This document shows, in pieces, positions 36,001 through 59,700 of a DNA stretch of 64,000 nt. A program made the translations under genes and the position numbers. Origin of the DNA: Nilaparvata lugens (lineage: Eukaryota > Arthropoda > Insecta > Hemiptera > Delphacidae); NCBI RefSeq assembly GCF_014356525.2, contig NC_052518.1:28274655-28338654 (forward strand), given 5' to 3'. The notes beneath the pieces were generated by a model. That model was not told the DNA's origin. It was given only the letters and a program-made list of their open reading frames with translations, and ran no database searches. Position 1 is the first letter of the stretch. Each line of letters opens with the position of its first letter.

Positions 36001-39000
36001 CTTTTGAGGGTTTTATTTTTATAAAATGTTCTGGAATAATATTTATTAGTTTATTTACTGTGTAGTTTATTGTCTTCTGCATAATAGTTGAGTCAGTTCG
36101 AGGAACAATATATCTATTTGCAGATCTGAAAATATAATTATTTTGATGCAGTGTGAAGAGATATATATGATTACTGATATATATAATGAGATTTCCAATA
36201 AATAGCTGTCTGACTGTCATGACTCCAAATTCTAGAAAAAGTTGGTGACTAGGGTATCGTCTGTGCATTCCCAAGGCTGCCTTGAGAATACCCTTTGAAT
36301 AACATTCAATTTTTTAAAATGTGCATTGAATGCATCACATCACACCCTAATTCCATACTGGAAGACCGACTCTACGTATACCAGTCTACTTAGACCTTCG
36401 TCTTCGAGTAAGCTCAAATTATAAAATTTAAGGATCATAAATTTCATTTTGCTAAACATACTATTCATATGCTCATTCCATCTTAAATGAGGGTCCAGAG
36501 TATATACTTTGTTTTGGTCACGTTTTCCAAAATGGGACAAGAGCAAGCCAGTTGATTACGATTGCTACCGTTCAAGCAATTTATATTGTGTACTCTCACT
36601 ACATTCAATTGAAGTCTGATATCATCGGGTTGAGTACTTGAGCTTAGTGAAAAAGTCATATAAACGCTCTTCGAGTAATTCAGTGTGAACGCAATTCTCA
36701 CAAGCCACATTCTCACACCAGAGAGTCCGATGTTGGTTAAGGATATCACATTGTCCCATGAAGTCCCCGTAAAAACCAATGCAGTATCATCAGCATAAGA
36801 CAAAACTCTACATCCCTTGATAGGAAGACTTAATAGATCATCTATATAAACTAAAAATAAAATTGGAGATAGAACTGTACCCTAGGGTAAGCCAAATTCT
36901 GTTGAAGTTATTTTGCTCTATTTTCCATTCAGAACATTTGTGTTCTGTTCCCCAAATAACCAGCAAGCTGATATGTGGGACAGTATCAAAAATGCTCTGG
37001 CTAAGTCCAGAAACACAGCCAAAGATTTTTTGTGTTGAAATTAGATGTTATTTCTTTTACAAGTTCAGTCATGGCATCCTCAGTACTCTTATTTTCTTGG
37101 AAGACATATTGATACTGGTTTATTAAATTGAACTTTTTTAAATATGAGACAATCTGTTCTTTTATTATTTTTTTCAAAAACTTTGGATAAATTACTTATG
37201 AGACTTATTGGACGATAATTACCTGGATTCGTTTTGTCCCCAGATTTATGCAATGGGATTATGTTTGCAATTTTAAAATGTCTTGGAAAATGTCCAGTTT
37301 CCATACATCTATTGAAAATTAATGTTAGGGGCTGAACTATTAAAGTTGCTATTATGGATAATAATAAACAATTTATTTGTTCAAAGTAATCATACATATA
37401 GAGTTGAGCCAACAATCATGCTGTTTTCTAATACAATCAGACTACTAACATTAAGGAAACATAGATGAATTTAATCAGCTTGCTGATATATCATCTGTTG
37501 AGTTGCTCAGCTTCATCTTATCAACTGGTCATTTGAAATATATATTCTTTCATGGAGGCACTGGTAGTATGAATTTTCTTGATATTCCCGAAGCAGAACG
37601 ACCGGATGAGAACGAATGTCCAAGAGGCTATCTACCAGAAGATGATATGAACAATAGATTTGTCAATTGCATGATAGAACTTAGAAATCTTTTACAGCAA
37701 TACGATAGAGTCAATGGAACAATTTTCAAAGAAGTTTTGCTGACACTCCAAAGCACAAATATACATGATTCTTCGGCTGTTTTCAGAGATATTCATTTGA
37801 GGGGTATGAATGTGTATAACAACGAACTGAAAATGTTTTTAAAACCATTAAGTTCAAAATACAGAATGGGGTTTAGTCTTGAGGGAGGCGGAATTTATGT
37901 ACCCTTCGATAAACACGATAAACACAGGTTCAAAACTAACGAAAAATATATTATTGTTAGTAGAGATGTTAAATGAGGAACTGATGTATTCTATCAACAA
38001 AGTTAATATAGCAAAATGTGTATTACCAAAGGTCAGATGGATAGATGGTGTACCTGGTAGTGGAAAAACACAACTAATTATAGAAAAGCATGAGCCATTG
38101 AAAGATCTCATATTAACTCAAACAAGGGCAGCAGTTAGAGAAATAATAGTAGCCATACAAAAAAATACGAGAATAAATATAGTTCTATAACCAATTCCAA
38201 CTATAGAACCGTGTCGTCATTTCTGATGAATGGACCGCACAACAAGAAATATAATCGTGTGTTTATCGATGAGGCCGTACTAATGCACGCAGGCTTCGTA
38301 GGATTCGTCTCTGCGCTGACGGACGCTGATGAAATAATTCTGTTTGGTGATTCGAGACAAATTTCGTACATTGAGAGAAGTGATTTACCGGCAATATGGA
38401 AACATATTTCTGTGTTTTCGGAGCCAAATCATTACCAATCAGTCTCTAACAGATGCACAGCTGCCTACTGTCGAATTACTACAATACATGTACTATATGC
38501 ACGAGGAACAAGATTATATGCTCAATCATGCCAACAATCAGTAACGGAGGCTATCATCAACTAGGACCAGAGACATTAATCCTTACATTTACACAGGCTG
38601 AGAAGCAAATGGTGATGGAAGCAGTGAATGATAAGATAAGGCTCCTGTCGGTTCACTCACAATACATGAAGCTCAGGGTCTAACATTCAAAGATGTTGTA
38701 TTGGTGAGGAAAAATATAAAGCCGTTAACTATTTACAACAGTATCCAACATGTGATCGTTGCACTGAGTAGGCATACCCGGTCTTTCAGATACTTATCAG
38801 TAGAGGGAAACTGGGATTGAAGACAGACTTTTTCGCTCGAAATCCCCTCCCCCCTCTCCCCCCTCGTCCATCCCGCCTCCCCTTCCCCCCGCCCGCAGGG
38901 TGGGGGGGTGTTCTAAAAATAGATTTCCCCTTCCCCTTGTCCAGTGGAGGTGAGGGGGTTGAAAAGAGAGGAAGATATCTTTCTCTCTCTCTCTTTCTAA

Positions 39001-42000
39001 AAATAGATTTCCCCTTCCCCTTGTCCAGTGGAGGTGAGGGGGTTGAAAAGAGAGGAAGATATCTTTCTCTCTCTCTCTTTCTCTCTCCCCTTCCCCTTGC
39101 CCTGTGGGGATGAGGGGGATGAAAAGAGATATCTCTCTCTCTCTCTCCCCTTGCCCAGGTGAGGGGAAAAAATTTCCCTTTTTGGAGGAAAAATTCCCTC
39201 TCTACAGATTGAATTGAGAAATTCTCTCCCAGTATAGATGAGGGGGAATAATTTCCCTTTGAGGGGGAAAAATTCCCTTGCTGACAGATTAAAGTGAATC
39301 CATATTACTCTATACTAGCGAATCCAGAGTGAGGTCAATGACTCTCTCTCTACATCTAATTGAATTGAGAAATTCTCTCTCTCTCGCATCTAATGCTATA
39401 AATCTCTACAATGATCTAAGTTCTTTTACATTTTTTATCTGCAATATCATACAAGCATTTCCAAAGTTCATCGGAATTTTTAACAACAGATAATGGCGAA
39501 TCATTTGTACAATCATAATGTAGATGTCCGCTGTCTAGAATATTGAGCAGTTCGAAAATCTCAGATAAAATCGAAAAGTGTACATTTTCTGTTTTTGTTA
39601 ACGGTAAATCAACATCTTGACATCCTGTTGAAAATTTAATATTCTTCGCAATTGAATCAAATTCATTAAATGAAATTGACATCAAGAGACAAGTTAATTT
39701 TTTGAATTTTGAAAAACCATAACACTGCATCTCGCAGATGTTTGACGTGTCTCGAATGAGGGGGAAAGATATATCTCTCTTTCTAAATTGATGAGATGCA
39801 CGTGTTATAGGGACTCGTGTCTGTATAAAAAAGATCACCCCACACGTGTTGTCTGGTCTAGCTCTAAGCAGCAACTAAACTAAAAAACGTGAATGGGATA
39901 TTGGAATGAAAAATCATTTGAAGGCAGAAAACGTTTATTTACACATTTCGGCACAACTATTCATAATTTCATCTTCAATTCTAATTAGCTTATCTATACA
40001 CAAATTATGAGGACGATAATAACATAGATAGTCTCTTATATCATTTAAATTAACCGTGCTTAGAAAAATGTCTTTCAATTGCTTCACCAAACTATAATTT
40101 TCAGGAGTTGATTTCCTAATTGCACTTTCACACTCATCGTACCAATCAATACAGTTTTTTAACCTCACTTCCAATTCGTTGTCAGCAGCCAACCACTTTC
40201 TCGGATCCATGTTGTTGAGCGAATGAAGAAAACTAAGTATAGGCAGGAACTATTATAGAGTAATTAAGTGGTCTTTCTTCATTAATTGACGACAGACAAC
40301 ATGTAGTGCTTTATGCAGTCTCAATGCATGCAGGCAATAAACACATTGTAGATCCTTTCCGTTGTAGAAGAATCCATAACGAGCAAAGTTTCTTTTCTGT
40401 GAAATTGTGTACATCGGAGCCATTTTCATACTTTGCATTCGATTGTTTTCGCACAAGAAATTATTTGTTTGATACATATTTTTAAACAACAAAGAATTAT
40501 AATGTTGGGCAGAGAATAAAGCACAGCGAGAATGTGGTCTATTTTTATGAATGTTGCACGCAGCATAACACCATGAACTAGTGAAAAAGCTGAAATCAGG
40601 TTTTGGAAAATCCTCTGGTATACATTGAACGTTGCTATGCAATCTTCTTAAAAACTTTGCTTTCTCAGTTCCTTTTGTGAAAATTTTCTCATAAGCTGCA
40701 AGGTAATCACGTATTAATGACTCACTGTATTCTAAATCTCCATCTTCCCATTTTATTTTATGATAGTGACGTTCTAACCATGTTACATCGTTATACAATT
40801 TTGCACTCAATTCTGTCTTTGCAAATGGTGATTTGAAATGTAACACAATATAATTATTAAACTGATCAATTATGGCAAGTTCTTTCACAATAATTTGATT
40901 ACAATCTTGTTTAAACCAGTGAAGATCAACCGTAGCAATTTTCGCACTCGCTTCCTTGTGCACTTCTTTCTCTTCGGTGGGGTCAATGAATCCTTTGTCT
41001 TTCTCCCTCCCCTCAGCGGCGGCGGACTCCTCGAATCCTTCGTCTTTCTCTTCTCGTGTCTCCTCCACCTCCAGCGGCTTCGGTGTACTTGCTTCATAAT
41101 AGAAACTATCAAGATCGCACTGAATACCAATAGAGCGAGTTTGTGGCTTGTCCAAAATATCAGAACACAAAGAATAGGACATGTTGCCTGTTCAAAGGTG
41201 AAACTGATAATGAACTAAATTGAGCAGAATGCACACCTTATATAGGCGGCGCGCTCTATCAATAAAATTACTGAACTTCTTTCACCATGCTAGTGAGAGG
41301 TGTGTACTCCATCACACGATCGCTAATTAAGACGCAATACACGGAAGTATTTGCAGGTACTGCACTATTAAATTCCATTTCAATACAAACATCTGTCGAT
41401 GATTTCAAATGACTTGGTTGGTGTGAACAATCTACAACAATCAGCGGTGTTGATTCACAAAACGTTTTAAAGTCAATTTCTGTTCCGAGTTCGCTATTGA
41501 TTGAATGATTATAATACGAGGGCGCGAAATCCAGGAACATCCGGTATAAAACTTCCTTCTTACCTAGCAGATTTTCATATGGATAATACTCACTGTTCAA
41601 ATATACTTTAACATTGTAAATACCGCAGCTATCGAAATTAGATATTGATTTTTTAATTTTATTCTTACGATCAGTTTGAAATGCAATTATAACGTATTTT
41701 GGACTATCAAAACTCGATGTGGTACGAACTGCCCAAGAATGGTTAAGTGAATTTTGCAAATTTGGTAATTCACAAATTTCCCAATGGCGGAAACCTAATT
41801 TCAGTGGAGTGTCAGCATCGAGCAGTCTCAAAAATTTCAGTCTTACATGATCTTCTAAAGTTATGTAGGGCATTCTCCATTGCAGTTTTGTAATTTTCAC
41901 ACTAACGCTTGTTCCACTTGCAGACACAACACAATTTAGATCTGTCGGTGACCTCAATAAGACGAGTTCCTGTTTCAAATTTAAAATTATTCTTTGAAAA

Positions 42001-44703
42001 TCTTCAAAAAACGGGAGGATTAATTTCAGCGGTACACAGAAAGTGAATGTATTATCCGTTAGCTCATATCCTGCTCTGTCAAAACCAGCCAAGTGATATG
42101 TGTTTTTATCGAGAGTATTTTTCACCAATATAGCTTTAATTGTGGATGTTAATCCAATCAATCTTGATTTAGAAATTTGCTGACCTGCTAATTCATATCG
42201 TATTTTGTCAAAAAGGTTGCCGATTACATTACTGCTTAATTTATAGTCTGCTGCAACTGGTGCATCGGCTGGGTCTGTTCCCGGTTTTGTACAGTTAACT
42301 GTTCCCTCAATCAATATGAATGATTTACAAGGTAAAGAATAGACATCTAAAGAATTTATGCCAATACGTGCCTCGTCAGAGTTTTTTATTTCCTGTCCTG
42401 AATAAACTGTATGAGTGTGAAATTGGAATTTAGTAATATCATTATAAAACTGAAGGTCTGTCTCCACATCCAGAATTTCACCAATTGCTGCGCCTGACAT
42501 TTCGCCAATCAACTATAAAACCCAACTTTTCTAATATTCTCGCGCTTTTAGCCGACAAAGCACGTTTGTTTTTAGGTGTTGACGCTATCGCGTTCCTTTC
42601 TCTAATGACTTGATTGGTCTTATTCGAACGTGGGTTGAAAATAAGATAACCCATTACTTTTCACGTATGTGCAACCTAATTGTAATTGTATCTCCGCGGA
42701 AATCAATAAACGATCCGTTCTGGTCCGTTACCTTTACATTAATAGTTTGAATTCGATGCGTATTCAAAGGTACATAAATAATCGGTGATGGTACTTCGTT
42801 TATTAAATAACCGCTAGGAACCTTTGGTAAAAATTCATAGATTATATGTTTTTGTTTTCCCTCAGAGTAACTGCCGCAAGCTAAATTACACTCAACTACA
42901 ATACTGTCAACGCTTGTTATGTTAACCAAATGTTTGGAATAATGCCATTTATTTGGCTGCAAAACAACATTATCAAAACCAAGTATCTTAGCAATCGAAT
43001 CAGAACGTGTTAAATCAATGGGTTTATCAGAATGAATTTCAATCTTCATAGTATTTACGTTTGCACGTATAATAAGTTTATTCTTCTTGCCATCAATATT
43101 CAATTTATTCTTTAAAGATTTTATAATATCCTCAACTTCATATGCACCAGTATCCAACTCGATTAATCTATCACCATATTTGAAGCTGGAATTTGTTCCT
43201 TTGTTAATGTTTGCAATACTATTGTAACTGGAAAAATTAATCAATCCAATTTCCCATTCACGATTTTTATCCAATTCTATAATTTCTTGTAAATGTTCAT
43301 AGAGGTTACTCGTGTTAGATCGTAATGTAATAACTACCATCTTGTGTGTTCACCACAAACACTTAATTACAACTGATTTGCAAGAAACAATAATGTAAGA
43401 TGACCACAAAAATCACTATTTAATGGTTGCATATGCTCCACATTATAAAATATATTTACTCCATTTTCTTTTTTCCAATATTTGTCCAATTCGTATGGAG
43501 GTTGTAAATTTCCAATTGGATCAAAATACCAAACATTAGAGCCAACTTTCTTATATGCTACCCAATGTGTGCCATCCTCGCTTTCCCTTGCTAAATTCAC
43601 AATGGCATTCTCGTTTTTTAGAATTTTTTTGGGTAATGCATCTAGCATATATATGCCTCTTAGCTGAATCTGTAATAATTTCGACCAATCAATAAAATCA
43701 TAATTACTCAATTCTCCTTCAATATTCATGCCTTCTTCTTCTTCTTCTTCCTACTCTTCTTTGTTGTTCTACGTTTCTTAACTTGAGGGAATAAACTCAC
43801 TCCATATGATGATGGGGGTAGGGGTGGAACTCTCCCCCCACTAGTTATTTGAGGAAAAGGCTTCAAAAAATATCCTTTTCCTGCAATATGCTTTTTCAAC
43901 TGAGCTATAGCTTTGCGTCTAATATCGTTACTATAACTTCTCCTCTCATTCTTCTTCTTCTTCTTCTTCTTTCTCAAAGACCCACCAAACGCCGCTTTAG
44001 CTTTCATAACGTTTGTAACAAGATAGCTAAGTGCTTTCTCGGCAAGGGGTGTTTGAGGATTTTTGAAAATGTCCCATGCAGCATTTGCTAGAGCTCTGTC
44101 AGCTACCGCTCGAGTTTTATTATCGCTATTTTGAGTATAGGCTATATCATGTATCTTGCAAGCTCTATCTAATGAATTTATACCTTGATCACCTCTCTTT
44201 AACCTTTCATTAACCTTGGTCCCCGGTCCGCAAAACTCATATCCCGGAATATGATATTCTTCCCCCAGGTTATCAATTACCTTATTTAAAATAGTTGATG
44301 TCACATTACCTGCCAAACCTGACACACCTTTAAAAACTCTTGCCACTGAACTCAAGATTCCTCTACCCCGTTTCCTCGAACTCTGCTTTTTTCTCCTACA
44401 TACCATTTTTCATTACCTTTCAACTCAATGGTTGAACATTAACTGAGGTTAATTAATCAATACACCAACTTGAATTGGTTTAATTTTCAATCGAGTTGGA
44501 AATGAATTCATACCATGATTGCTATGATACATTGCTTGAATGATAAGAATATTATTTCAAATCTGAAAGGTGAATGCGATTTGAAAAGGGGAGAAATGAT
44601 GCTGGCATTGCAGGCCCACCCACATCTGTAGGAGCACGTGCTAATGTAGGAACACGTGCTAATGTAGGAGGGAGCGAGAAGCCAGCAGTGCTTGCCTGCA
44701 CTG

Positions 44704-44747
<44 letters not shown>

Positions 44748-47700
44748 CGGAAAAGACTAGTGAGCATGCTCGCAACAAACTATAAAAGACGCAGTCACCT
44801 TATTTAAATATCATTCACAACAGAGCAGGTGAAGCAGCATTTCTTCTTCTGCGTGTTTCTACTATTCATTACGAACTTATCAACAACGGCAACAACAGGT
44901 AAGAATTGAAAACAATTTTTATAGACACAATATTTCAATTTATTTTATCTATTTGCACATACATCTATACAATTCGTAACACATAGGTCAACGAATTGTA
45001 TACAGATATAAAAATTGTTAAGCATTAACAATTTTTATATCTGTCCAATTTGGAGACTTATGTGTTACTACTAACACATAATGTTTACAATTTTTGTTAA
45101 AATGTTCAATCTTCGGCGTATCAATGCAGGAAGCAAATCTTTGAGGTAGATACACCTCACATTTGCTTCCTGCATTGATTATTTTTAAAATTACACGCCG
45201 ACCGTGCTGGTTTGTGTCCTCCCTCTCGGCAACTATGGGGTAGGGAGTGCGCTCCTTCAACTCCCTCAGCGGCACCCACGGTTTCGGCTGCGATTTGTTG
45301 ATGGTGAGGATCCACCTCCTTCATTAACGGCACGAGTGAGGAGTCCTCGTCCATTACAGCTCGTTTCTGTTGAAAAATATTTGATTAGTGTCTTATTTGT
45401 TTCAGATCAAGATCTCTACATCAGATTATCATCGAATTGTCATCATCGAATTCTCTGCATAAAGTGAGTAATATCAGTTATTGAAATAACATTGGATTGA
45501 CTACTTTAAACAATAATTTCTATTCGGCTCAAATAATATTTCCTTTGCATTCCAAGCAGTTCAAATAATATTTCCTTAGCATCAATTTCTATTCGGTTCA
45601 AATAATATTTCCTTTGCATTCAAAGCAGTTCAAATAATATTGGTAACAATGTTGCATGATCGGTTACTTTAAACAATAATATCTCATAATACCATTTCTA
45701 ATCAGTTCAAGGAAATATTGCTAACATTGATACATGATCGATTAGTTTAAACAATAATTTCTAATCAGTTCAAATAATATTCCCTTTGCATTCTAATCAT
45801 TTCAAATAATATTTCCTTAGCATCAATTTCTATTCGGCTCAAATAATATTCCTTTGCATTCCAAGCAGTTCAAATAATATTGGTAACAATGTTGCATGAT
45901 CGTTACTTTAAACAATAATATCTCATATACCATTTCTAATTAGTTCAAGGAAATATTGCTAACATTGATACATGATCGATTAGTTTAAACAATAATTTCT
46001 AATCAGTTCAAATAATATTCCCTTTGCATTCTAATCATTTCAAATAATATTTCCTTAGCATCAATTTCTATTCGGCTCAAATAATATTTCCTTTGCATTC
46101 TAATCATTTCAAATAATATTTCCTTAGCATCAATTTCTATTCGGCTCAAATAATATTTCCTTTGCATTCCAAGCAGTTCAAATAATATTGGTAACAATGT
46201 TGCATGATCGGCTACTTTAAACAATAATTTCTAATCACTTCAAGGAAATAACATTGTTGCATAATCGATTAGTTTAAACAATAATTTCTAAGCAGTTCAA
46301 ATAATATTTCCTTTGCATTCTAATCACTTCAAGGAAATATTGCTAACATTTATGCATGATTGAATACTTTAAACAATAATATCTCATAATACCATTTCTA
46401 ATCAGTTCAAGGAAATATTGCTTGCATTCTAATCAGTTCAAATAATATTCATATCAAATAATATTCGTATCAAATAATCAAAGACTCATATGTGCAAAGA
46501 TTTTTTAACAATCAATCAGAGAAAAAAAATCTGTGCATACACAAGTTAATAATATTTGTTGAAACTAACCTTTGATTGAGTGAGCACCTCCTCCTCCTCT
46601 TCCCCGCTAACCTCAGGCTCCTCGAACGTTAACTTCCTCTTCCCCTGCTTCTGCCTGATGCTGTTTGAGAGGGTTGTCAGCACCGCACGCCTCGGCGCCC
46701 AGGTAGGTGCTGGAGCCAAGCGCTGAATAGGGTTGTCCCCGATCACGATCTCGCCCCCTGGTGATGCTGGATCCAGTGGAGCGGGTGCGGGAGCAGCAGC
46801 AGCGGCAGTGGCAGCAGCAGAAGAAGCAGCACATGACTCGGCAGCTTTGCGCTGCCAATAGTTGAGCACACGCTGCGGGGGTGGGCTATCCGGCAGGATG
46901 TAAGATGGAGAATGTGAAGTCATCATGAAGGTGGTTCAGATGTAAATGATAATTTTCCTCTCATCGCTTGTGTTTATATAGCATATGTTTCTCTCTCTGT
47001 TCCAGGCTTGTGCGAGCGAGAGCGTGCTACAAGGCGAAAAAAATTCGAATTTCTCCCCAACAACACGTGCTCCCAGATCGTTATCAGATTGTAAGTATTC
47101 TCTCTCCGACACACGATCATTTTTCAAATAGCATCCATGTGTTAGAAGACGAAAAAAAAAATCTCGTCTAGAACTCAGCATGAGACTTCACCTGCTAGAA
47201 GCTGAAATCCCCCATGTCAACTCACTCAAACATATTTCTATTAAATATTTCACGCCATAGAGGAATAGCATTCTCGATTCAGTTATTAAATATTTCACGG
47301 CATTTCAACATAGAGGAATAGCATTCTCGATTCAGTTATTAAATATTTCATTGTTTTCACAGCATTTTCTCACCTCTCAACTCGAGTTCCGAACCTCATA
47401 ACCAGTTGAGCTCTCGTCGAGAGAAGACAGCTGAGAGGAATCAATCATACCATAGGGCGCTATCTACACCTCTAGCATAGACCGCTATCTACACCTGTAC
47501 CATAGCCCGCTATCTACACCTGTACCATAGGCTTGCTATCTACACTCGAGGAGATTCACGCAGCATCAACCACTACATGTAAGTACATTTTTACTTTGAT
47601 TTTATCCTCTGAGGAGGAAAATAGTCCTCCGAGGACAGTTTTTGTCCTCCGAGGAGAGGACTTTTGTCCTCAGAGGATAAAAAACCTTCTACAATATACT

Positions 47701-50700
47701 GCATGCATGCGATTTTACTTCATCTTTACAATATGGTATATCTGGAACATCCAAGCCCCGCTCTTCTTTCTCACACTCTTCATATAAACAAAACGGTAAA
47801 TGTATTACTTTTTCAAATGGATTTTCCATAATATATTTGCAATAGACACATTGCAGATAGAATGGATTTTTATGTAAGAAATAACCATTTCTCGCAAAAT
47901 ACTCTGCTTTATTGCATAATGATTTACAAAAGTCACAATGATGATGCTTTTCAAAATACTCTCCTTGAACGGATGAATCTTCTACACAATTAAAAGTTGA
48001 ATATCTTTCTTCATATTCTCGTAGAATATTATTATCGAAATTCTCCTCTTCAATTGTTATATTATCTTTCCTTCTACAGTTCGGACTGTACCTTGCATGT
48101 TCTATTGCTGGTATGTCACTTTCTTCCCATTTTCCCAAATAAATTGAACAAAATACACATCGCACAATGTCTGGTGGAGATGAGAATATAAATCCCTCTT
48201 TCGCCATGTTTTCCGTGGACAAATGCGGAGAAGATTTCAACCATCTTTTATCAAAAGATAATAATCTTAATCTTTCATACAACATTATGTGATCTTGAGA
48301 TATCATTTTCACACACCCTTCTTCTACCAATGTCAATTCACAACTAAACATGTTGTTGTACTCTATCTCATCCTGATTGTTATTCTTTTGTTATAATTAG
48401 GGAACATGCGGCACGCCATGATGGGAATGTTAAATGGTTTATAGTCTTAAATGTTTTGCTGTATAAATTAGTGGTGATGGATGACAAGCAGGTTGGTGAG
48501 ACTGTCTCATCTCTAATAAATCTACATAGTTACTCCAACATAGCGCTAAACGTGCTTGAGAACTATGAAGATTTTAATGAGCATTTTTTCTTGGCTGTGA
48601 AAAAAATCCTCTCATCTTTCGAAAATTTCGTAAGACATGGGAGTGGATGGGTGCTAAAGAAAATTGAATCACTGGATGTGAACGTGATTAAATTTAATCC
48701 TATATACACATCCAGTTTCATTCAAACACCCCAGTTTTTGAAAAACAAACATTGCATTATAAATGTCAAAAATCTCTCTGACGAAAAATGCTTTTTATGG
48801 TCAGTGCTCGCGTATTTCCATCAGAAGCCAAGGAACTCCGACTTGAGTGTAAAGTATTTGAGCAAGTTTGCTCACACACTTAATACGCAAGGTGTAAATT
48901 TCCCGGTGACGACACGCGATATTAAGAAATTTGAAATACTCAATCCAGACATTGCAATTCATGTCATCGCGTACGAGAACAAAAAGTTTTTCCCCTTCCG
49001 TACAAGCATTTTCCGCACGTGTAAACACCAAATTAATCTTTTAATGCTAAAAGGCGATGCAGGAAAAACTCATTTCTGTTTAGTAAATACTGCAAACGGG
49101 AAAAACGGGCTATCGCGTCTTCTCTCGCACCTTTCAAAACATCATGGTCAAGTACACATTTGTAATTTTTGTTTTCACCGGTTCACATCGGACAAATCTA
49201 AAAATTATGATGGTAAAGCAAATTTAATGAAACATGTGGAACTTTGTTCCAAGTTTGAATCTCAGCGCGTTTCATATCCTAAACGTGGAGAGACAATTAA
49301 ATTCAAGAAACTAGGCACCACGTTGAAGAAAAAGTACACCATTTACGCGGATTTAGAAACTTATGTTGTTAATATCACAGATGATTCCGATTCTGATGAA
49401 ATTACTCGTAGTTACACAAAGAAAACGGCGCGTCATATTCCCTGCGGCTATTGTTTCGTTGTTATAGATGTTAATGGGGAAATCGCCTACGGACCTGTAC
49501 TCCATAGATCGAGTAGTTTAGACGAAAAAATCATGGAGAAATTTCTTCAGGAAATTACAGATCTCGGGGACATTTTGTATGAGGATATGAAACGAGAAAT
49601 TCCGATGCAAGCTTTATCCGAAAGTCAAGAGCGTGAATTTCAAAATTCAGTAAACTGTGGGCTTTGTGCTGAACCGTTTTTAGACAGCGATATTAAATGT
49701 GGTCACCACGCGCATGAAACCGGTAATTACTTGTGTGCGACACATGTTTCTTGTAATTTAACAGCTCGTACTCCGGAGTACATATCATGTTATTTTCATA
49801 ATTCCTCCGGTTTTGATTCGCATTTTATTCTGAAATCGCTCGGTAAATGTAAAAAAGAAATTTCCTGCATCGCAAATACGTCAGAGAGATTTTTGACACT
49901 TTCAGTAGGCAAAATTAAATTTTTAGATTCCTACAAGTTTATGTCTGAATCCTTGGAAGTATTGGTGCGTAATTTGGTAGAAAGTACAGACATGGAAAAG
50001 AAGTTCGAACGATTATTTTCGGTGTTTCATGATCCACCTCGCGAACACAGACAGCTCTTGTTGAAAAAAGGAGTATATCCCTACTCGTACATGAGCTGTC
50101 CCGAAAAATTCGCGGAAACATCGCTTCCTCCCATCGAATGTTTTCATACGATTTAACTGATACACCTCTGTCTCGTGAAGAATATGAGCATGCGCAAAGA
50201 GTGTTTTCAACATTCAAGCTGAAAAATCTGGGTGAATATCACGATTTTTATTTATGTTTGGACGTAATGCTATTAGCGGTAGTTTTTGAATCCATGAGGT
50301 CTACGCTTTTTAGCTCATATGGCCTTGATGTGACCCATTTTGTTTCTCTCGCACACTTCACCTGGAATTGCATGCTGAAACACACTAAAGTCGAACTAGA
50401 ATTGATTACTCATCCTGACATGCATCTTATGTTTGAGGCAAGGATGAGGGGTGGGGTGTCATTTATCGGTAAACGTTATTGCGAAGCAAATAACAAACAT
50501 CTACCCGAAACATACGATCCTTCAAAACCGTCTAATTATCTGCTTTATATCGATGCAAACAGTTTATACTCGGAAGCTATGAGCCGAAGCTTACCTGTTG
50601 GAAATTTCAAATTCCTCTCAGAGGAAGAAATTTCCAGCCTTGATTTCGCGAATTTGGACAGCAATTCAGAAACCGGATATATAATAGAATGTGATCTCAA

Positions 50701-53700
50701 GTACCCTCAAGAGTTACATGATAAGCACGCCAGCTTCCCACTCGCACCTCTCCACCAAACGCCGCCGCCTCGCGAATTGCTGTCGAACTACCAAACAAAT
50801 GAGAACGGTCAAACTGGAACCAAAAAGCTCATGAACACACTTTTCGACCGTGAATAGTACATTGTTCACTATGTCAATTTAAAGCTCTACCTTCAGCTCG
50901 GTTTGAAATTATTGAAAGTGCATCGCGTCATTAGCTTTTCCCAATCTCCCTGGCTGAAAAGCTACATCGACTTCAATATCCGGAATAGACAGAACGCGAA
51001 AAATAAATTTGAAATATCCTTCTCTAAGGCCTGTTGTAACCTAATATTTGGCAAGACGATACAGAGTAGTCGTAAGCAAATGAATGTTAAAATTATCACG
51101 GATGAAAAACGGTTAGATAAGTACATTTCAAATCCACTATGTAAACGCTGGCAAATAATTAGTCCGAACATGATTGCAGTTTTCTCTCGCAAGTTGGAAC
51201 TTAAAATGAACAAGCCTGTCTATTCCGGCTTTTCCGTACTGGAGTTGAGTAAATTCCATATGTACGATTTTTTCTATTGCAAATTACAAAAAATTATACC
51301 GTGGGATCGTATAGAACTGTGTATGACTGACACCGACAGTTTTCTTCTAAACCTAAAAGTCGAAGATGTGTATCAGTTGATTAGAGAAAATTTTACCCTT
51401 TTCGATACTTCTAACTATCCACCTTCCCACCCTTGCTTTTCCATGGAGAGAAATAAAGTTGTAGGAAAGTTCAAGGATGAGACCGCCTCAAAACCTGTGC
51501 ATAGATTTCTAGGCCTTAGATCGAAACTTTACTCATTTTTAGTATGTAACAAGAATGAAGAACCTGTAAATAAATGTATAGCATAGGGTGTACAGAGCGG
51601 AGTGAAATGTAGAAAACTTAATTTTAATTTATATAAGAAATCATTGTTTGAACGTAGTGAACATGTAGAAAAATTTAATATGTTAAGATCCTATAATCAC
51701 ACCATGTATCAGGTTGAATGTGCAAAAATCTGTTTGAGCCCTTATGATGATAAGAGGTACATTGCTGAGAATGGTGTTGATACTCTCCCATTTGGACATT
51801 ATAGAGTGCCCACAACACTCTAACTGATTGCTCAGTATGTCCCGTGACAATCATCCAACACCACTGATTTGACTATATCATGAATATTATTAGATCTAAG
51901 CTAGCTTTAGAGCTTCATAGCGTGCCGCTTGTGAACTATCCCACTCGCAAATATGAGTTGAAAAGTGAAAAAGACTTGCTTCAAGCCGATCTCATTGAGA
52001 TGACGAGTTTATCGCGTTTTAATAAGGGTTACAAATATATCTTAGCTGTTATTAATTGTTTTTCAAAATTTGCATATTGTGTACCATTAAAAGACAAGGC
52101 AAGCCAATCTGTATTTAACGCTCTCAAGCCAATTATTTCTAAAAATAAGGGAGTTAAGCTGTTCCAAACAGATCAGGGAACAGAATTCTTTAATTCAAAA
52201 GTTAAAGCGTTATTAGATAGATATAGTATTAAACATTATCATGTTTTTACCGATAAGAAAGCCTCCATAGTTGAAAGGTTTAATAGAACACTTGAAGCAA
52301 AAATTTATAGATATTTAACTGAACATGGAACCAAAAACTGGATATCGCAACAAGACAGTTTAGTTCGTGATTATAATGCAACAATGCATTCATCCATTAG
52401 AATGAAACCTAAAGATGTGGGGAAAAAAGATCGTAATCATGTTTTAATGTCTTTGAATTCTGCATTCAATAGATGATATAAATTGAAAAATTCAAAACCG
52501 AAATTTAAGCTAGGAGATGTTGTACGAATCTCAAAGAAAAGGGTTCTTTTCGATAAATCTTATAACATAAACTGGAGCGCAGAGTATTTTGTAATTCATT
52601 CTATATTTCCTTCTCAACCTGTAATGTATAGCCTGCGAGATCTAAACGGAGAAGTAATTAGTGGTAGGTTTTATGCAGAAGAAATTAAAAAAACACAATT
52701 AAACGAATCGGAGAGACAAGTGTATTTGATTGAAAAAATATTAAAACGTGATAAAAAAGGATTGCTAGTGAAATGGATTGGGTTTTCAACGCCTAGTTAT
52801 ATTAGTAAAGATCAACTATTAGATGAAAAATATTCTTTTGTAATCTATTGTAAATATCATGTACATTTATTGTAAATAATCTATTGTAAATATCATGTAC
52901 ATTTATTGTAAATAATCTATTGTAAATACATTCCATTCAGTGTAAATATCATGATGTACATTTGTTGAAAATATAATAGCTCCTCATCAAACATTGCTTT
53001 TCATTTCAATCTGAAGTTTTGTAATTTGCTAAGGCTCAACCAACAGATGCATTCTCGTGAAGAGGGTGCGGGAAAGAGAGTGCCAGTTGAAGTGAGAAAC
53101 TTCTATCAGTGGGAGGGAGCCTCTGTCTAGCCATGTGGTGTGATCCTCTCCGATAACTTATCAGTTCCTTATCAGATCACATGCTGTACACGTGACTAAC
53201 ATGATTTCGATAGTAAATTTCGACAATGTTATAAGAGAGAAAGAAATGCCAACATGGTGTACAAATGGTAAGTTGTTACCACATAATGCAAGGATCCTTA
53301 TAATAGGCTCTTCAGGGTGTGGCAAGACCAATTTACTATTTAATTTAATTTTTTCAAAGAATGGGTTGAGATTTAAAACTATATACTTGCACACGAAGAG
53401 CGAGTATCAAGATAAGTACTTGTTTTTGAGAAAAGTCTTTTCAAAAATGAAGGGTATTGAATTTCATATAAACAGCAATTCGGAATCTATACCTCACCCC
53501 AACAAAATTCAACAATTTTCTCTTGTCATATTCGACGACTTCCAACTTAATCACGTACCTCAAATAAGAGAATATTTTACCATGGGACGACATCGTAATA
53601 TTGACACTGCATATTTAATTCAGAGTTATGGAGCTACACAGAAACATTTCACTAGGGACAATGCGAATATGATTATAATCTTCAAGGTAGATTTATTGAG

Positions 53701-56700
53701 TCTGAAATTAATTCACAGAGATCATGTTGGAGCAGATATTTCTTATAAAGATTTCGTTAAACTTTGTCATAAAGTTTGGAATCGTAAACCTCATAATTTT
53801 CTAACTATTATGAGCGAGTGTGGAATTAATAGCGGCAAGTACCGAGATTCGCTCGATACGTTTCTTACCGTTCAGTAGAGATTAATTCTTTGTGCAGTCA
53901 TGTTGTCATACAACAGCAAAAAACTGAATAGAAAGAACGTTGGTTTAATCGAAAAGATTAAGAAATTGAGAAAAGTAATTAGAGACAAGCATAAAAGCTT
54001 AGTCAATTTTGAAAGGCGATCGGAGGAATACAATAGGAAAACGCTCTCCCCGTTGATAGAGCCCATAATTGAACTGGGAAAAAACAAATTCTCACACTCT
54101 GGTGTAAAACCAAAAAAGGAAGAAGTAAAAGAGGAGAGTATGCAAATTGATGATAATGGAGAGGGGGATGAACAGAGTTATGAGAGTTCAACAGACAATT
54201 TTTTAAGCTCGACTAAATTTGAAAACAGTTTACTTGGTTCTAGCAGAAACGATGATGTGCTGTCACAATATCTAAAAACGTTTCATGCGGAAAAATTGAA
54301 TAATTCAATCAGTTATGGAATTTCATATAATTCTAAAGATGACGTGTATTATATTGGAAATCAGCAAGTAATATTCGATAACGGTTATATAGATATTAAT
54401 AATGAAAGATTCCGTTTAACACATGGTCTACTTGAGTTATTATTCAGTGGGAGACCAAACTCAAATCTTTATAATCAGAGAGATCTGGATAAGTATAAAA
54501 AAATCTTAACACTTACAGGCATACATTTAGATCGAAGAGGCTATGTTAAACGAAATCAGGGAATTAAATCGCAAATGATTCAAAAGTTATTTCCCAGTAA
54601 AAAAATTAGTAAAAAGAAGGGTTGGGGTTTATTGAAATTTGCAAAAAATAATTCTCATGATAGAATTTATCAATACTTTGATAATTTTGACGAATTAGTG
54701 GAAAGATTAAATTTACTCTATTCCTCAAAAGCTAGTGGCAACACCGGGCATGATGTGGAGATCGCATCTATAATTGAAGAGCTAAAAGAAGCAAAATTAA
54801 TTGTTTAGTGTCACAATGACTCTACATCGATTCGGATGAATTGATACGGCTAGCGGAGCTCTTGCTAATCTTACGTGTGATATTGACTCGATAACACAGA
54901 AGATAATCGAATCGATAAATCAACAAGGAATCAGCGAAGCTGTGAAATTTTATTTAGATTCGCAAATAACCAAACTCGTTTCGGAAAATACAAAGAATAT
55001 TGGAGTGAGCATAATTGAAAGAGAACATATTCTAAGTACATTACAAAATTTCAGTGCTAATATCGATAAAGCTATTGCAGAGAGAACACTAAATTTAGAA
55101 TCTGCTCTAGGAGAAGTGAAAACTTTAACAGACAGCTTTTCATCTCAGTTGCTCAGTATTAACAACGATAAAGTTGATAAAGCTTATTTAGATGAGAAAT
55201 TAAAAGCCGTATCAGATAAAATTAAGAATTTGGAGGTGCTGGACAGAAACTATCTCAATACTAAATTGAAACAACTTAGTACAGAAATTTTTACTAAAGT
55301 AAATGAAACACAGCCATCGGGAATTGATAAGCAATATTTAGAATCTGCTTTGCAGAAATTGATTAGTTCTTCATTAACAAAGGAAGAGTTTGAAAAACGA
55401 TTATCTGAAATGGCGAGTGCAATAAAAGCTAATATTATGGAAGGTATTGAACAGTTCATTACAAAAGATGCTATTGCTATTCTAATTAAGCAAATTGCAG
55501 AAAAGTATGCAACTAAAAATGATATAGGAGATTTTATTAAGAAAAACGAGATGGGAGTCGCTGTGAAAAGCGTTCGTGATGAAATAGCTGAGGCAATTAA
55601 AAATTCGGAAGAGGGTACTGTCATGAGACTGCAATGTTCGGCTCCATTCATTGAGTATCTAAATTTATACATTCACAGAGTGGCCCTGGACATCGTATCC
55701 AAATACGCCCAGGTTTCTTTTCACATGAACTGGATTGAGGCAAAAGAACATAACCTTTCCGAAAATCAGGTAGTGCAAATTATTACAGAAAAAATGGATT
55801 TAGTGAAATATAAAGACTTTATATTGGGGCCGAAAACATAAAATCTTGTAAACAGTTGTGTGAGAGAGAGTGAATGATATGTTGTTTCAGCCTAGACGAC
55901 CGTGATTGATTGTATAAACACTTGTGTGTGAGAGAGAGAAGTATTTAAACACCTGCAGTTTCAAATTACACCCTAGACATTTTTGACTATATCGATAAAT
56001 CTTGTAAAAGGATGTGTGAGAGAGAGTGAACTTTAACACCTACAGTTTCAAATTTCACCCTAGACATTTTTGACTATATCGATAAATCTTGTAAAAGGAT
56101 GTGTGAGAGAGAGTGAACTTTAACACCTACAGTTTCAAATTTCAGTCTACACGTCCGTGATTGATTGTATAAACACTTGTGTGAGAGAGAGTGAAGTACA
56201 CACCTGCAGTTTCAAATTTCACCCTAGACATTTTTGACTATATTGATAAATCTTGTAAAAGGATGTGTGAGAGAGAGTGAACTTTAACACCTACAGTTTC
56301 AAATTTCAGTCTACACGTCCGTGATTGATTGTATAAACACTTGTGTGAGAGAGAGTGAAGTACACACCTGCAGTTTCAAATTTCACCCTAGACATTTTTG
56401 ACTATATCGGTTTTCTACATAAATCTTGTAAAAGGATGCGTGAGAGAGAGTGAAGTAACTTTAATGACTAAACACATGTCACAGATGATAAATCGATTTA
56501 GACATTTTTTCATGTAACGAAATGTAACGGTTTTCGCTGCAGGAGAGGGAACCTAGCAGAGAGCAGTGCGCACGTGTCTAGATGAGGCACACGCTCACGA
56601 GCAAGTGCACGCGTCACTTTACTCTAAACAGGTGAACTGACAACATGATGTCTAACTATTTTGACTGCACAAGTTTCAACGAGTTGTCTGTAGAAGCAAA

Positions 56701-59700
56701 TCCACTAGTTGATTGGGGTTTTGAATTTTATGCCTATGATTGGTTTGTGGTAACAAAGGTAACATTTGCCGATAATGGTGAAATTCACCTTAAAATTATC
56801 GATATTGATAGTGAAGGCGACTTTAAACATACTATCAAGTTGCCGAAAGAATATTCAGTGGTTTTGAATGAGAATAACATCAGAAGTTTTAATTCTCGTT
56901 CATGGGAATTAAATGTGAGCGGAAATCGTATCTTCTTAAGGCAGTTTCATGGTAACTATAGACGTTGAGTTCCGTCCCGAGTGAAATAGGTCTGAGAATG
57001 TGTAAGTATTTTTAGATATGCTAGCTCATTCCAATTATACTTACATATTGTCGGAGAAAACACTTGAAAAAAAAAACGACTGCCATGTTTGTACAGCAAA
57101 AGAGCTCAATTTTTTACACATTCATAAACAGTTTGATTGAACTCTTGACTGTCAGTTGGAAAGCAAGCATAATATGACCCATTATAGAACTTAGATTATT
57201 GTAGAGATTCACTAGTACAGTATATCATTAGATGTAGAGAGAAGGATTCGCTAGTATAGAGTAATATGGATTCACTTTAATCTGTCAGCAAGGGAATTTT
57301 TCCCCCTCAAAGGGAAATTATTCCCCCTCATCTATACTGGGAGAGAATTTCTCACTTCAATCTGTCAGTATAGCAATATGGATTCACTTCAATCTGTCAG
57401 TGAGAGAGAGAGAATTTCTCAATTCACTTTAATTTGACAGTATAGCAATATGGATTCACTTCAATCTGTCAGTATAGCAATATGGATTCACTGTCACCAA
57501 GGGAATTTTTCCCTCTCAAAGAGATTTTTTCCCTCATCTAGCATTCACTTCAATCTGTCAGTATAGCATTAGATGTAGAAATATGGATTCACTTTAATCT
57601 GTCAGTATAGAGAGGGAATTTTTCCTCCAAAAAGGGAAATTTTTTTTTCCCTCACCTGGGCAAGGGGAGAGAGAGAGAGATATCTCTTTTCATCCCCACT
57701 GGGCAAGGGGAAGGGGAGAGAGAAAGAGAGAGAGAGAAAGATATCTTCCTCTCTTTTCAACCCCCTCACCTCCACTGGGCAAGGGGAAGGGGAAATCTAT
57801 TTTTAGAAAGAGAGAGAGAAAGATATCTTCCTCTCTTTTCAACCCCCTCACCTCCACTGGACAAGGGGAAGGGGAAATCTATTTTTAGAAAGAGAGAGAG
57901 AGAGAGAGAAAGATATCTTCCTCTCTTTTCAACCCCCTCACCTCCACTGGACAAGGGGAAGGGGAAATCTATTTTTAGAACACCCCCCACCCTGCGGGCG
58001 GGGGGAAGGGGTGGCGGGATGGACGAGAGGGGGGAGGGGATTTCGAGCAAAAAAGTCCGTCTTCAATCCCAGTTTCCCTCTACTCTTATCAATTGGGGAA
58101 GAAGATTTGATGTTGTCATTAACGAGAAAAATTGTTGGAGATATGAATATAAACACACAGCTCCGTCACCCACATCAACAACTATAGGATTATCTGAATT
58201 TTTGTTGTGAATATGGTCTTAAACATTGTATCAAAAAAGCTACAAGGACTACTGGAGAGACAGCTTCCTGTATAGACCATATTATGATCAATTTCGAAAA
58301 GCAAGTATTACCTATAATTTATGAAACCAGCATCACAGACCACTTCAGCATAATCCTGGGATTGAAAGAAAGTACTTCTACTGATGTCAGCAGCAACGAC
58401 AGCAATACACTTCGAAAATCCTTAGATTTGATTAGACTGAAACAGCAACTTTCTACAGAGAACTGGGAAGGCGTCATCAACGCTCAAGACACCAACATTT
58501 CCTACGAAAATTTCATCACTATACTCAAGAAACTCATAGGAGATAATAACCAACTACTACCACCAACGTAAACGTCTCAAACCTATCAAAGCATGGATCA
58601 CAAGAGGACTAGTCTCAGCTATGAGGAGAAGGGATCTGCTCAACAGAAGGAGGAAGATGAATGACTTTGAATTAGCACAACACTACAGACAATATCGCAA
58701 CACTCCAGCAACATTAATTAAAAATACAAAGGAAGAATATTATAGAACAAAACTAAATGGAGTACAGGACAATCTAAGAAAAACCTGGCAACTGATAAGG
58801 GAGGCAACAGATGCAGTGAAAAGGAATGAGGATACATTAAGTAAGATCATTATTAACAACAACATCCTGTCAATCGAAAACAATCACGAAATCATTCTTG
58901 AGAAGACTAATGAGCATTTTGCTAACATTGGAGCGAATCTAGCCAATAATGTTGCAATCACACTTGAAAAGTCACTCCACGTTATAGAAAACTAATATAG
59001 ACCAATACTATAAACTCGCCATCTTCGATGTATTTTCAACCAGTTACAGAACAGGAAGTACTGGACACTATCAATACTCTTCGAAAAGCTAGTGCCCCAG
59101 GGCTTGACGAAATTGACAACAGAACTCTGAAAGCAGTAAAAGAGCACATTGCAATACCACTAGCAGATGTTTTCAATAAGAGTCTCTTTCAAAATTCAAT
59201 GAAAAAGATTTGTAAAAGACCCTGAAGTCAACAACTATAGGCCAATAGCATTAGTCAGTAATATTTCAAAGATCCTTGAAAAACTTGTAAAAAAGTTGAG
59301 TTAATTATCTTGAATCAAAAAACCTGTTGTAACCCAATCAGTATGGCTTTCGACAAAACAGATGTACAGATGATGCTATATTTGAGTTGACAAGGTCCAT
59401 AATAAACGATTTGGATAATGGTAGGAAATGCCTTGCAGTATTTCTGGATCTAGCAAAGGCGTTTGATACAGTATCTCATGGCATCTTACTGAAAAAGCTT
59501 CAGGCTATGGGTGTAAGAGGTGTTGTCTCAGAATGGTTCAAGTCATATCTGGAAAATCGTAGGCAGAGAGTCAGGATTGGGAGAAACCTAAGTGCAGGAG
59601 ATGGCCTTCCAGTTAGCTTCAGAGTACCACAAGGAACCGTTCTTGGACCAATACTCTATCTCATCTTTGCCATCGAGCTGTGCTCTATGGATGTCGGTGG

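Follow-up and report, generated by a model that had tools for sequence, protein, structure and literature searches.

A predicted ATG-free spliced leader ahead of the polymerase gene in Polintons of the planthopper Nilaparvata lugens

The window considered here is a stretch of 64,000 nucleotides (nt) of the Nilaparvata lugens genome (assembly GCF_014356525.2, contig NC_052518.1, positions 28,274,655 to 28,338,654 of the forward strand), and all positions below are counted from its first letter. It contains a complete Polinton, a member of a family with many sister copies in the same genome. The polymerase of these Nilaparvata Polintons is very probably expressed from a remote promoter by way of an ATG-free spliced leader, with the initiating ATG inside the polymerase exon. 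The anatomy of the element, its reading frames, the conservation over 20 sister copies and a counterpart of the last leader intron in a second Polinton family are all observed in the genome. Transcription of the polymerase would begin some 3.6 kb upstream, at a TATA/initiator promoter near 44800, and host splicing would join four short, untranslated, ATG-free exons to a polymerase exon that begins a few bases ahead of its ATG. The introns removed would hold genes of the opposite strand, including a BIR (inhibitor-of-apoptosis-like) gene, and ribosomes would scan the ATG-free leader and initiate at the first ATG.

In the window copy, the putative promoter consists of a TATA box (TATAAAAG, at 44781) and an initiator (TCATTC, at 44811), together spanning 44781–44816 of the plus strand, with a distance of 32 nt from the T of TATA to the A of the initiator. 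Four predicted exons lie on the same strand. These are exon 1 (44811–44898, donor GTAAGA), exon 2 (45406–45463, acceptor CAG, donor GTGAGT, of the kind called type A below), exon 3 (47006–47090, acceptor CAG, donor GTAAGT), and exon 4 (47363–47578, acceptor CAG, donor GTAAGT), which includes a 25-nt tandem repeat (47448–47545). The final acceptor of the window copy is a TAG at 48400. The promoter pair, the four exons and their splice sites are present in the sequence as described in an initial annotation of the window. Splice sites were scored with generic matrices. The donors are near consensus, as had been claimed, and donor 1 and the exon 3 acceptor are outstanding (within about the top 0.1% of GTs and AGs in the window), whereas donor 3 scores 6.2 bits and the 48400 acceptor 6.1 bits (with 2.9 equally good sites per kb), both ordinary.

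The four exons total 447 nt and contain no ATG, as stated before, with 5.7 expected from composition and 4.5 from dinucleotide shuffling; the earlier figure of about seven was too high. Absence of ATG was found in 1 of 2000 shuffles of the exon sequence. If exon 1 is made to begin at 44811, the proposed chain is the highest-scoring ATG-free chain of four exons; if the first exon is left freer, the winning chain (65.9 bits) has unchanged donors and inner exons. This score was reached in none of 400 block shuffles (maximum 55.0) and in none of 451 overlapping segments taken elsewhere (maximum 55.3).

Comparison with related Polintons for conserved splice sites and lack of ATG had been proposed as a check. 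A DNA query (47300–48600) against the same genome gave 40 scored candidates; 39 were full or nearly full matches at other places, and 20 of the 39 were read. These sister copies are 89–98% alike over the query. Donors 3 and 4 are GTAAGT and acceptor 4 is AG, all intact, in all 20. Wherever they were found, acceptor 3 is intact (18 of 18 copies) and donor 1 reads GTAAGA (12 of 12), and the TATAAAAG and TCATTC motifs occur in 10 of 11 sisters each where the place was found. Over the 240 bases that make up the 40 hexamers at donors 3 and 4 there is not one change, against about 4% of sites differing from the window where intron 4 begins; the copies being related, this comparison is a guide and not a test. 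As to the lack of ATG, depletion was found and not full absence: exons 1, 3, and 4 have 10 ATGs in 6670 nt (from 10, 18, and 20 copies, respectively), whereas 29744 nt of intron sequence (introns 3 and 4) contain 622.

Exon 2 exists in two forms. Type A, the kind found in the window, is present in 7 sisters, where it measures 70 nt, and an unrelated type B (61–68 nt) in 8; their similarity is matched or exceeded in 145 of 500 shuffles. Both types follow TTATTTGTTTCAG, both end in AAA|GTRAGT, and exon 2 is ATG-free in 15 of the 15 copies in which it was found. The copies seem to preserve splice sites and freedom from ATG, not exon sequence as such. Intron 3 is 1147–1183 nt long in copies L009, L015, L016, L018, L020, L021, and L023, about 0.9 kb more than the 272 nt of the window.

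The polymerase start differs between the window copy and its sisters. In the window, the junction 47578/48401 yields an ATG whose frame, of 584 codons, is that of the polymerase, and the initial annotation had taken this junction as the source of the native start codon. The ATG and its frame are indeed there, and an ATG is also spelled by the window genome at 47577 (ATGTAAG). As an account of the native start, however, the junction is now extremely improbable. Conserved polymerase codons set in at the junction itself (83% identity to a Nilaparvata model over 30 residues from 48387), no in-frame ATG occurs ahead of 48477 in the window polymerase, and no N-terminal polymerase exon was found elsewhere in the window. 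Upstream of the junction residue, Nilaparvata models have 45 residues and a Lycorma model 44, which pointed to a loss in the window copy. In 38 of the 39 other places, the match is split at window positions 48386–48393 with an extra stretch between the two parts, and the remaining match ends before that point. The loss amounts to about 133–138 nt, and, judged by these alignments, the loss of about 135 nt is private to the window copy.

At this deletion site (48386–48393, plus strand) the native last acceptor, the polymerase ATG and about 43 codons are gone relative to the sisters. All 20 sisters have the native last acceptor TTTTTCAG (9.7–11.4 bits), followed by a polymerase exon opening with AATCATG (ATTCATG in L020), in which the ATG begins at the fifth base and opens the residues absent from the window copy. 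A metagenomic BIR relative (P0014) implies YTTYTTYTTNARDATCAT at the place of the deletion, which fits the native acceptor. Since the sisters have a stronger acceptor and an ATG within the exon, the junction start codon is an accident of the deletion, and the acceptor at 48400 is, on this comparison, former coding sequence. That the Nilaparvata models start with M-E-H was considered as a sign of an inherited split start codon and rejected: these residues are encoded by ATG GAG CAT within an exon of a different family, and the match arises by chance.

The 5′ part of the window polymerase occupies 48401–50153 (plus strand), and the rest lies in a different frame at 50033–51583 (plus strand), the frame shifting at about 50.0–50.2 kb and an in-frame stop following at 50855–50857. 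With the native last acceptor and the start lost, the frame changed and this stop present, the window copy cannot make the native protein and is dead or crippled. Across the genome, many polymerase copies have stops and others are open. A single defective copy can suggest a mechanism, here a start codon made by splicing, that is not present in its sisters.

The Nilaparvata models LOC120353558 and LOC120354407 belong to a different Polinton family of the same genome, and the Nilaparvata protein P0005 matches the window's own assembly at 100%. With a query protein of this second family, a lower tier of places appears at 72–75% identity, the level of the window's family, and the window itself is at 76–77%; polymerase identity between the families is 73–77%, and at protein level the second family stands at 74–75%. 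Genome-wide, at least 40 places were found by the window-family DNA query and at least 116 by the second-family protein, which reaches both families, and the planthopper genome has dozens of Polinton copies.

Thirty loci of the second family were read. The acceptor TTTGTTTTCAG (10.5–11.2 bits) lies 19 bases ahead of the polymerase ATG in 30 of 30, and an antisense BIR gene lies upstream, within the intron, in 29 (54–56% identity in the four rows shown). The unusual donor CAT|GTAAGT, identical to donor 4 of the window's family, is found 784–820 nt upstream in 27 loci. The two families thus have in common the acceptor before the ATG, the antisense BIR gene in the last intron and the CAT|GTAAGT donor. 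Where matches were displayed (four loci), DNA similarity to the window is confined to BIR, and the leader letters outside it are not alignable. Taken with the sister copies, this lends the proposed ATG-free spliced leader support, partial in the case of the second family; the start codon made by its last junction is the part of the initial annotation that was refuted.

Several observations weigh against the leader as drawn here. TATA/initiator pairs were counted in 7 rows at 6 places, with 3.5 expected by chance. When the ATG condition is dropped, a different chain scores higher (71.2), and a five-exon ATG-free chain with an extra exon at 46703–46760 scores 77.4, so that score alone does not settle the exons or the exon number. 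Ten ATGs do fall in exons of the sister copies, exon 2 of either type was not found in 5 of the 20, and only 10 allowed a measurement of exon 1. Extra conservation of exon letters was sought and not found (exon 3 95.6%, exon 4 96.4%, intron 4 start 96.2%), and with copies 89–98% alike the intact sites are partly due to plain descent. In the second family, the ATG-free stretch ahead of the donor is only 57–148 nt long, so an exon 4 of the window's length without ATG is not established for that family.

Two other explanations bear on these points. Fortuitous sites might have been preserved by the common descent of the copies in an element that undergoes no splicing at all, and exon letters no better kept than intron letters would suit such a history; they are also as expected of a leader in which the splice sites matter. 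This explanation is nevertheless quite improbable: exon 2 comes in two unrelated sequences, both ATG-free and bounded by equivalent sites, ATG is depleted in the exons, the second family has a counterpart, and the chain score is unmatched by shuffles and other segments. It is possible, if on balance unlikely, that the leader is spliced within a longer or alternative unit, in which the acceptors at 48025, 48080, and 53176 are also used or several genes are served as in adenoviruses. The last intron has acceptors of 9.4 and 11.3 bits, but 48025 and 48080 sit within the antisense BIR gene. The ATPase open reading frame (ORF) has its first in-frame ATG 25 nt past the acceptor at 53176 (7.9 bits), with one out-of-frame ATG between; this acceptor could serve the ATPase, but no link between it and the leader was found. 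Between 48300 and 56500 there are 16 acceptors of at least 6 bits, and the interval near the integrase start, bounded by 50897 and 53176, is free of them. The preferred explanation is still the ATG-free leader leading to an ATG in the polymerase exon. If true, a spliced leader conserved in insect Polintons would show in concrete terms how transcription of such an element proceeds.

The Polinton of the window is 19.3 kb long (38799–58084), with inverted repeats and a 6-bp flanking duplication, CTTATC, at 38793–38798 and 58085–58090. It has the Polinton/Maverick gene set of polymerase, integrase, ATPase, protease, and DJR capsid protein. The capsid module is on the minus strand (39419–44409) and comprises ORFs for the DJR capsid protein (PF21738, E = 1.9e-86), a protease-like protein of the adenovirus type (PF00770, 21.6 bits, barely over the cut-off of 21.3), and a phospholipase A2-like protein. 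Polymerase, integrase, and ATPase are on the plus strand. The protein-primed family B polymerase matches PF03175 in two pieces (23.1 and 23.7 bits, slightly below the curated cut-off of 25.8), and relatives of the first piece were found in insects. ORFs for a retroviral-type integrase (PF00665, E = 1.1e-12) and an A32-type ATPase (PF04665, E = 7.4e-10) occupy 51868–53875 (plus strand), each with additional open stretches in the same frame downstream.

Opposite-strand genes are found inside the leader introns. The BIR gene lies within the last intron (47689–48351, minus strand), an antisense ORF with its own TATA/initiator (46978/46948) in intron 2 (46546–46926, minus strand), and two overlapping antisense ORFs in intron 1 (45018–45384, minus strand). 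The leader exons fall between the antisense ORFs, an arrangement with a chance probability of 0.11 and hence a weak indication. Intron 1 has perfect hairpins at 45002–45044 (20-nt arms) and 45120–45179 (19-nt arms), close to where its antisense ORFs have their 3′ end, and intron 2 has a 0.9-kb array of diverged tandem repeats (45505–46422). In the gap that separates the exon 4 donor from the end of the BIR gene, palindromic TCCTCNGAGGA units occur (47600–47690). The planthopper BIR gene has a relative in a BIR fragment filed under Klebsiella pneumoniae (P0017, on a contig of 464 nt), a label that is probably due to contamination. Just left of the Polinton, an ORF at 38139–38561 contains a viral superfamily 1 RNA helicase domain (PF01443, 1.9e-15; solved replicase 3vkw, 3.6e-10) and is probably an RNA-virus replicase fragment in the insect genome.

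Searches of the window for RNA families and tRNAs found none. Bacterial-type promoters were at chance level (16 compared with 17.4) and terminators numbered 4 compared with 2.3, a scan irrelevant to this element. Scans of viral contigs with the polymerase, a polymerase alignment, the capsid protein and BIR found no relative. Residues 1–75 of P0004 matched only the two Nilaparvata models, with E up to 1. A literature search, in which coverage of subscription papers was poor, found no description of a Polinton with a spliced leader, and term searches of two articles (PMC11071296, PMC4028283) turned up nothing about such leaders.

Adenoviruses are a virus group related to Polintons. Intact vertebrate Mavericks were reported to be intronless, in agreement with earlier work (PMC8097293); the planthopper element has the same inverted repeats, 6-bp duplication and gene set as animal Polintons/Mavericks, and differs from the vertebrate ones in its predicted spliced leader. 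Cryptophyte Polinton-like viruses have group I self-splicing introns (PMC12220804), which are of a different kind from the leader introns predicted here. In adenoviruses, late genes are expressed via a spliced tripartite leader and the polymerase via the spliced E2 unit (PMC9499273, PMC7851563). Spliced leaders, a polymerase reached by splicing, and genes on both strands are thus features of adenoviruses as well, the planthopper leader being a prediction from sequence. Human adenovirus HAdV-A31, for example, has its polymerase at c4866–8042 and c13193–13201, the 9-base piece being shared with pTP (PMC2794291). The remote exon of E2B is coding and, to go by these coordinates, brings the start codon, whereas in the planthopper copies the ATG lies in the main exon (20 of 20 sisters and 30 of 30 second-family loci). 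Adenovirus leaders are also shared between genes, whereas the planthopper leader has so far been linked to the polymerase alone. Many DNA viruses of eukaryotes are considered to descend from Polintons (PMC7805220). We suggest tentatively, with somewhat less than even confidence, that insect Polintons have a modular, ATG-free, multi-exon polymerase leader that threads between opposite-strand genes and predates the split of the two planthopper families, its exons being swappable as long as splice sites are kept and no ATG is brought in. Early expression would then be tied to nuclear host splicing as in adenoviruses, with which the arrangement may share descent.

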